From contig NC_092651.1 in the NCBI RefSeq assembly GCF_032118995.1, positions 22,738,349-22,802,348 of the forward strand: a stretch of 64,000 nt of DNA, read 5' to 3'. This DNA comes from Asterias amurensis (Eukaryota; Echinodermata; Asteroidea; Forcipulatida; Asteriidae). The notes below the pieces were generated by a model. The model ran no database searches, was not told where the DNA came from, and worked only from the letters and a program-made list of their open reading frames with translations. Position numbers and translations under genes: made by a program. Shown piece after piece: positions 22,895 through 31,490 of the stretch. How positions within the stretch are numbered: position 1 is the first letter of the stretch; each line of letters starts with the position of its first letter.

Positions 22895-25800
22895 ATGACT
22901 GCGGGCCCAAGGGGCGTGTTTAGTGTGTGTGTGTGGTTGTGTCTTGGAAGTGCAAGTTTCGATGTCCAGGCCAGTATGAGCTGTAGTCGTGCCTGCGTCA
23001 CAGACGTAATCATAGATTCCGATCAGGCAGTGGTTCTCTCTCTATTCAGCGCTGTTGATGATTTACCAGCCCACTATTCCTCTTACGGTGGTTATGGGGA
23101 TGGAGAACCATTGGTCGGGTACGCCTTCGTTCCGTCCCACAACATCACAGAAAGTGACATATTCCCGAATGGCATCGGTGTCCTACCCCAGGGTCACCAA
23201 TTCTCAATCTTCAAGAAGTCGCATGCCGAAGAAGCAGCGAGAATCGTCAACTACCTGGTCTCACTCCCCACTTTAAAGAAGTTCAAGGAGGATGCCGATC
23301 GTCTCCGGGCAATTCTGAACGAGGGCATCTACTTGTACGCCACCTCCACGGCCGTGCTGCACCGTGAGGACACCCATGGTGTACTGTTGCCTCCGCTGTG
23401 GCAGATCAATTCTCGGCATTATTTCCCTGGGCCGGTCATCAAGCGTGCTTTCGACCTGGCTCGCCGCGGTAAGGTTGGCGGTTCCGACGTCCCGGCTCTT
23501 CCTCTCCCTACCTTTACCACTGGTACTCACCGGGACCCGGAGTTCAAGCTTGCCTGGTGGAGAGAAGATTGTGGCTTCAACGTTCACCACTATCACTGGC
23601 ACCAGGTACGAAGCATTTCCATTTACAGTGCAATCATGAAGAAAACCACCACTTATACAAAAAACTACAACAACAAAATTAATATACTAGAACTTGGTAT
23701 TAATTTTTGTATTATGGTTGGGAAAACCGCAAACACATGAAAACTGATCAGAGGAGAGTTGGTAAAATTATTGAAACTGTACAATATTATGTCATTTAAG
23801 TTTTCACGTCTTGGGAATACTGCGTCGTTTGATAGGTACTAGATTCGCAGGAAGTATGAACCGGGCTTTACACGAATGAAGTCATATTATGCATAATAAC
23901 AACGTGGTTGTGCCCTGTTTTACTCTTTCCAGTTTGGCAATACATATCTTGTTTTTAAAGGCACTGGACACCTCATGTTCTCAATATGCATAAAATAACA
24001 AACCTGTGAAAATGTCTACTCAATTGGTCATTGAAGTTGCAAAAGAGAATTGTGAAAGAAAAAACACCCTTCTTGCACAAATTGTGTGCTTTCAGATGCA
24101 CACTAAAATACGTCAGCTGAAGAATTTTATTAGTTGAGTGAGAAAATACCACTTTCTCAAAAAACTACGTAAACTATGAAAACTTTGAAAATATCCTCAC
24201 TTTTTTGCTGTTTTTGTTCAGATCTCTGCAAAATTAAAGAGTCGAAGGAAATGAAACCAACCACACTTAAAAGGTCCATAGCAGGCGTTCAAATGGTTTC
24301 CTTTGCATCAAGACTTACACATAGTTGTGTTGGAATAATCACTACAGAGTAGCAAGTAAAAAATCGCTTTTAAAAATCGATACCTGGTTCCAGTTGCAGG
24401 AATAATGGGACAACATCCATTAAACCTACACTTAAATCCAGGGATCGGTTTAAAGGCAGTGGACACTATTGGTAATTACTAACAAAATAATTGTTAGCAT
24501 TACAACTTACTTGGTAACAAGCAATGGAGGGCTGTTGATAGTATAAAACATTTTGAGTAACGGCTCCCTCTGAAGTAACGTAGTTTTCGAGAAGTAATTT
24601 TCCACGAATTTGATTTCGACGCCTCAGAATTAGATTTTGAGGTCCCGAAATCAAGCATCTGAAAGCACACAACTTCGTGTGACAATGGTGTTTTTTCTTT
24701 CATCACTATCTCTCGCAAGTTAGAAGACTAGGCTTTGACAATTACCAATAGTGTCCGGTGCCTTTAATAACAAAGCAAATTCACCCTCATTTGAGTATTC
24801 CACACATACATATAATTTATGTTGAATTTCACAGTTAAGTTACCTCAGGGAAATGGTTAAAAGTTATTGTTTTGTATTTGTTGTTATTAGTTATATATTT
24901 ATTTTCTTTTTCTATTTTTTTTTATTGGAGCTCTTAGAGTCCGTTCATTCATCCCCAGTGAGAACAAAGGACAATCATTTTCTATATAGATACTGATAGA
25001 TCAATACATTACGAACAATGTGGATACAAAAAGCTATCTTAAAGGACAGTGAACGAAAGTGATATTGCATATCAAACAAAAACATCCCAACTCGAGAAAA
25101 AGCAAATTAGTATATCCATCCAAGAAAAAGGTTTTAAGACGAACGTGAAGGTTATTAACTGAAAAGATGAACAACTTCAATTTTTTAGTTTGTGTGTTTA
25201 TTAGTTTGTTTATTTATATATTCATTTACTTTATTTATTTATTTATTTATTTATTTATTAATGTTTTTCATTTATTTATTTACGTATTTATTTATTTACT
25301 TAGTGCTTACTTATTTCCTCCTTAAAGGGACACACCGGCTCACCGTTAACGCAATTTAGGGGTGTAGAATCATAAATAATGTTTTTATAGATGGTTGCTA
25401 TAAAAAAATCATCAAAATGTCACGTATTTAGCGAAAAATGATTTTAAAAAACCAAAGCGGCCATATAACAAGCTTCCGTTACACGGACTCTTTGAATGTG
25501 AATCTTACGTTAGATTTTTCACCATTATTTACATTTTGTAGCGATAATTTGAATACATGATCTTTTTCGTCAATTATTCGTAAATAATTTTGTAACAAAA
25601 AAGATTTAAATTTGGTTAAGTAAGTTACTTTTAGACGGCTGAAAGTAAAACTAGCCCGGAAGGTCACGGGATTGTTTGTACCACTTTTTGGTTAGAACAA
25701 TCACGCGACCTGCGTTTTTGTCTTAAAATGCTCAAATTTGCGGCTAAATTTTGTGATTTTTTTAAGGACTGTTCTTCTTCATTCCTGGAAGACCGTTGAA

Positions 25801-31490: not shown

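Follow-up and report, generated by a model that had tools for sequence, protein, structure and literature searches.

An intact, single-locus gene of the arthropod hemocyanin/prophenoloxidase superfamily in the starfish Asterias amurensis

We analyzed a 64,000-nucleotide stretch of the genome of the starfish Asterias amurensis (hereafter the window; positions 22,738,349 to 22,802,348 of NC_092651.1, assembly GCF_032118995.1), in which a gene of the arthropod hemocyanin/prophenoloxidase (PPO) superfamily had been predicted at 22895-31490 from the DNA alone. An intact gene with GT-AG introns indeed lies there on the forward strand: its eight coding exons (Table 1) splice into an unbroken frame specifying a 703-residue protein, rather than the seven exons and 660 residues of the original prediction, whose exon number is that of the introns. 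All seven introns are of the GT-AG type; the first six are in phase 0 and intron 7 is in phase 1. The GC content is 0.527 in the exons versus 0.372 in the introns. In tblastn searches of the window, the Holothuria protein P0005 matched all eight exons, those of Antedon and Tityus seven each and that of Anneissia six. Since P0005 recovers every exon, and a single shuffle of the window gave zero matches to any of five family proteins, chance does not explain these matches.

Along its entire length the translation equals the NCBI protein "hemocyanin AA6 chain-like [Asterias amurensis]", which comes from a 28-Mb contig; the window occupies 22.74-22.80 Mb of contig 4 of a 491.5-Mb, 23-contig assembly. 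A genome search with the protein returned eight matching places, all of which are exons of this gene; likewise, the profile matches in the genome (one exon for Hemocyanin_M, two for Hemocyanin_C) are all at this locus. Because every match in the assembly falls within these exons, we conclude that, within the reach of this search, there is a single copy of the gene, and that it does not stem from a contaminating arthropod. Contamination, a concern raised together with the original prediction of an echinoderm source, is rejected on the basis of the chromosome-size contig, the unique locus and the echinoderm clade described below.

Table 1. Coding exons and N-terminal features of the Asterias gene (positions in the window)
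Feature	Position	Strand	Residues and content	Evidence
Leader codons 1-27	22895..22975	+	TG-rich; six of the seven other echinoderm proteins lack it	
Alternative in-frame start ATG	22976..22978	+	M28	sequence
ATA codon	23012..23014	+	I40; place of the start Met in other echinoderm members	alignment
Coding exon 1	22895..23605	+	1-237: leader, N domain with placeholder F106, CuA H232 and H236; GT donor after 23605	tblastn
Coding exon 2	26054..26212	+	238-290: CuA histidine H260	
Coding exon 3	26493..26669	+	291-349	
Coding exon 4	28163..28318	+	350-401: E367, H382, N383, H386; block absent from Patiria isoform X2	
Coding exon 5	29220..29387	+	402-457: CuB histidine H422	
Coding exon 6	29751..29879	+	458-500: C domain	
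Coding exon 7	30724..30910	+	C domain	
Coding exon 8	31066..31490	+	C domain with YCECGWP and MGFPFDR; stop codon TGA	

Intron 3 contains a (CTG)n array with 26 copies of a 6-base unit (27670-27825) and a 156-aa open stretch (27062-27529) that has no Pfam match at E 0.01 and which we take to resemble the C-terminal end of a non-long-terminal-repeat retrotransposon reverse transcriptase. A short element with 28-nt inverted arms is present in intron 1 (24450-24767) and at other places. Its end sequence occurs at 11 places in the window at ≤3 mismatches (mean of 0.00 in shuffles), with one copy in intron 1 and one directly after the stop codon, where inverted arms were not found.

Pfam profiles recover all three domains of the family above their curated cut-offs: Hemocyanin_C (E 9.9e-66), Hemocyanin_M (2.1e-52) and Hemocyanin_N (3e-12), the last of these spanning only profile positions 58-124 of 124. 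The C-terminal family motifs, all of which had been noted in the original prediction, align to the solved hemocyanins, and the fold of Limulus hemocyanin starts at residue 39 of the Asterias model. Fold-alignment identity is 38-40% to chelicerate hemocyanins versus 23-26% to hexamerin-type chains. With the Pfam matches, the alignment to solved hemocyanins, the tree and the fold in agreement, the product of the locus belongs to the arthropod hemocyanin/PPO superfamily, as originally proposed, and is a type-3 copper protein with three domains (N, M and C). The N domain is probably more widespread than the Pfam matches show, since a Hemocyanin_N match below the threshold occurs in one EukProt protein without a name and the fungal protein AsqI gives a fold match from model residue 42 onward.

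The six copper-site histidines (H232, H236, H260; H382, H386, H422) stand in the spliced protein exactly where they had been predicted. Of 160 aligned proteins, 157 have all six, and the set is intact in Asterias and six of the seven other echinoderm rows. F106 aligns with Limulus F49, presumably the placeholder that blocks the entrance, in a column that is Phe in 154 of the 160 rows. E367 sits 15 residues before H382 (Glu in 156/160), and the column of N383 is divided between Asn (95/160) and Gly (61/160). We take E367 and N383 to be the "waterkeeper" pair of tyrosinases, for which our literature search found no paper; PDB entries of tyrosinase N205 mutants are among the fold matches. Asn at this position with a nearby Glu favors monophenolase activity, and Gly favors catechol-oxidase chemistry. 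A divergent protein of the crinoid Anneissia, bearing EGF domains, has Q and G at the two places. Asterias retains C609, C611 and C654 and is without the first of two later cysteines present in the arthropod rows; one or two extra cysteines shortly before the C-x-C-G motif are found in all seven other echinoderm rows and not in Asterias.

A search with the single sequence yielded 56 proteins, one with an eight-row profile 47, and one with a 79-residue piece 230, of which 120 were listed. Apart from that of Asterias, seven of the first 56 come from echinoderms or cluster with them: proteins of Acanthaster planci (64% identity to the Asterias protein), Patiria miniata (isoform X2, P0003; 63%), Holothuria leucospilota (two; 57% and 48%), Antedon mediterranea (53%) and Anneissia japonica (P0008; 37%), in the last of which two EGF-like stretches precede the hemocyanin domains, and the unnamed P0004 (57%), for which a contig of 2.6 kb with a reading frame of 645 aa suggests an assembled transcript. 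The closest named non-echinoderm sequences in this search are arthropod. The Pfam N domain is found in 26 of the 120 listed proteins: 7 from named echinoderms, 15 from named arthropods or onychophorans and 4 unnamed. The matches listed in the second and third searches include no additional echinoderm by name, nor any named hemichordate or cephalochordate; because only candidates sharing short words were scored and 120 of 230 were listed, the missing sea urchin, brittle star, hemichordate and amphioxus matches show nothing about those lineages. Five proteins that are bacterial by name (P0022, P0099, P0128, P0138, P0146; three from metagenome assemblies) have hemocyanin M and C domains and all six histidines.

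A quick tree of 48 rows chosen from the 160 proteins recovered the eight echinoderm rows as one group, with a value of 98 in the Shimodaira-Hasegawa-like approximate likelihood ratio test; the named panarthropods alone did not form a group, as unnamed rows and one mosquito row labeled "other" fell among them. We then built a more careful tree of 45 rows and 591 columns that left out the partial Timema protein, an Anopheles farauti protein without the N domain and the Patiria protein without exon 4. Here the seven echinoderm rows form one group (98/95) outside the panarthropods, whose 21 rows, 15 named and six unnamed that were assigned after the first tree, also form one (100/99); a clade of the two groups also takes in the long, unnamed row P0017 (98/99). 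Within the echinoderms, the starfish rows and the sea cucumber rows each group together and then join weakly (90/62), Antedon is outside them and Anneissia is outside all other echinoderm rows. As the two crinoids thus do not form one clade, the EGF-bearing protein of Anneissia probably represents either an older paralogue or a long branch that is misplaced, and the remainder of the echinoderm tree fits vertical descent.

Grouping the echinoderms with seven chelicerate-group rows was rejected in the approximately unbiased (AU) test (p 0.021, only indicative, as the hits had been seen before this group was named), as was grouping them with the tunicate Botryllus and its unnamed relative P0049, i.e., tunicate orthology (p 0.00017, with a group again named post hoc and long branches). 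This alters the comparison with tunicates made in the original prediction. These placements are compatible with a deeper history, to which we give an even chance: a three-domain PPO-like hemocyanin protein would have been present in the last protostome-deuterostome ancestor and survived in starfish, sea cucumbers and crinoids, with the tunicate "arthropod-type" phenoloxidases representing a separate, older paralogue. Since the tested groups were named post hoc, the branches are long, and the tree has one named tunicate and no hemichordate, such an ancestry is plausible rather than proven.

The N-terminus of the Asterias protein departs from that of its relatives. The starts of the Acanthaster, Patiria, P0004, Antedon and both Holothuria proteins lie at or within about 6 residues of Asterias residue 40 and consist of short leaders (e.g., MASKQ, MNNKQ) followed by a VLxLF-like stretch, and the seventh echinoderm row, that of Anneissia, has a different, EGF-bearing leader. 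Similar short starts are seen in the hemocyanins of Tityus, other chelicerates and Epiperipatus, and in the PPOs of Eriocheir and Lasioglossum; the comparison is mostly of database gene models, not of sequenced proteins. At the relatives' start Asterias reads ATA GAT TCC, the ATA being one base off ATG. Our reading is that the ancestral start codon was lost and that translation now begins at an ATG upstream of it, for which M28 is the simplest choice; other possibilities are a start at M1, a signal peptide, and an allelic difference or assembly error at 23014. No conserved signal peptide was found among the seven other echinoderm rows. The general statement that arthropod PPOs lack signal peptides also needs qualification, as the start of Chamberlinius PPO is signal-like; that of Scolopendra PPO3 is longer.

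With moderate confidence, we favor the view that the gene, inherited vertically within echinoderms, encodes a latent phenoloxidase that would be made without a signal peptide in the cytosol, like arthropod PPO. If expressed, such a protein would carry two coppers on the two histidine triads and bind O2 as peroxide, with the substrate entrance plugged by F106 of the N domain. Proteolysis or another trigger may shift the N domain and admit phenols, which E367 with N383 would help to deprotonate en route to o-quinones; these could then feed melanin-like defence or wound sealing. Several observations weigh against this view. No arthropod-type activation cleavage site was recognized by eye, no dedicated search having been made, and the best PDB sequence and fold matches are, by a modest margin, chelicerate hemocyanins and not PPOs. 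Patiria isoform X2 is without the exon 4 residues, and hence two of its CuB histidines are gone; it is possibly an exon-skipped, copper-poor form. Finally, Q401 stands where Limulus hemocyanin, Androctonus hemocyanin and Manduca PPO1 have a Glu, which we presume to be the proposed catalytic base (Glu395 of PPO2 of Manduca; our literature search found no paper). As this column is variable in both the 56-row and the 160-row tables, we dropped it as an invariant catalytic Glu and relied on E367 and N383 instead.

The same matches, and the resemblance of the relatives' N-termini to those of chelicerate hemocyanins, would suit the main rival, a respiratory or O2-storage hemocyanin in which this fold carries or buffers oxygen in the coelomic fluid. 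We regard such a carrier as unlikely: chelicerate hemocyanins are multi-subunit, whereas one gene locus was found here, and starfish are not known to have blue coelomic fluid. The want of a conserved signal peptide points the same way, although the chelicerate hemocyanins compared are also without one, as does the retention of E367 and N383, which alone does not exclude a carrier. A copper-less or structural descendant, comparable to the hexamerins or cryptocyanins, is very improbable given the intact histidines in Asterias and most of the echinoderm rows and the lower identity to hexamerin-type chains. Least credible of all, with a very low probability, is arthropod contamination or a recent horizontal transfer from an arthropod: it would account for the closest named non-echinoderm sequences being arthropod but not for the chromosome-size contig with its unique locus or the echinoderm clade outside the panarthropods, and the AU test indicates, with the reservation given above, against a grouping with chelicerate hemocyanins.

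The original prediction had instead favored a secreted protein, in which case the 27-residue leader would be a true signal peptide gained in Asterias after the old start codon was lost. Residues 8-18 are hydrophobic (Kyte-Doolittle mean 2.35) and followed by a V-x-A site; there is an in-frame stop upstream of M1 (22895), which is the first ATG, has A at -3 and begins the identical NCBI model; and the old start no longer reads ATG. Yet M28 (22976) offers an alternative start that also has A at -3, and the leader derives from a TG-rich stretch upstream of the usual start, is absent from most of the other echinoderm proteins, is modelled at pLDDT (predicted local distance difference test) <50 and lies outside the Limulus hemocyanin fold. 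Secretion is thus not supported as first proposed, and we hold it to be unlikely, on a par with an oxygen carrier.

Elsewhere in the window, the reverse strand contains an open stretch for a rhodopsin-type G-protein-coupled receptor (12138-13100; 7tm_1, E 4e-37), two open stretches that resemble each other and match the Link domain weakly, under the curated cut-off (43579-43953 and 57803-58138; perhaps duplicated genes), and two with a PAN domain over the cut-off (51722-52204 and 61744-62100), the second of which starts hydrophobic. The forward strand has an open stretch with a Myb/SANT-like DNA-binding domain (44354-44767; E 3.1e-08), and a tandem duplication of period 157 with 100% matches lies at 52270-52580. 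Scans of the window with Rfam at the gathering threshold and for tRNAs found none.

Although automatic NCBI names for echinoderm members already exist, we found no discussion of an echinoderm member of this superfamily in the literature searched, mainly under the spelling "hemocyanin": the Asterias gene is thus an ordinary, intact member in a phylum where it has gone undiscussed there. In its accessible text, a 2013 survey names Strongylocentrotus as its only echinoderm and reports no type-3 copper protein in that draft genome (Aguilera et al., 2013; PMC3658974). A 2018 paper on myriapod hemocyanin, in the portion available, lists relatives in tunicates, hemichordates, sponges and fungi, which probably act as phenoloxidases, and does not list echinoderms (PMC6034248). 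Phenoloxidase activity and melanization have been reported in echinoderms, in the passages available with no gene of the hemocyanin/PPO type assigned, and an ascidian paper, in the part available, cites an increase of this activity by limited proteolysis (PMC9395347). The Asterias gene is a concrete candidate for this poorly understood pigment-forming defence enzyme. If the ancestral history outlined above is true, echinoderm phenoloxidase activity would in part be due to a true arthropod-type PPO and not only to laccase, and the sea urchin draft surveyed in 2013, at least, would be without such a PPO, as far as that account goes.

Among known systems, the chelicerate hemocyanins (Limulus subunit II, Androctonus AA6) are the best match, sharing with the Asterias protein the three domains, six histidines, placeholder Phe, CxCGWP and MGFPFDR motifs and the start of the fold; Asterias differs in its one locus found, in a fold-alignment identity that does not exceed the range given above and in missing one of the two cysteines near SYCG. 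Unlike the arthropod PPOs (Manduca PPO, Aedes PPO6, Anopheles AgPPO8 and crustacean proPO), it has no activation site recognizable by eye, and it differs from Manduca PPO1 at Q401. The tunicate Botryllus protein A0A0S1S6G3 has the M and C domains, the six histidines, the placeholder Phe and the active-site E and N, but is without a Pfam N-domain match, shows 31% identity over 64% of the query and falls with bacterial and fungal rows in the tree. The Phe placeholder is also the rule for the beta-subclass of type-3 copper proteins, which, in the accessible text and table of Aguilera et al. (2013; PMC3658974), is given no Cys-His bond and has members in hemichordates, urochordates, sponges, fungi, amoebozoa and arthropods; in this residue the Asterias protein is like them.
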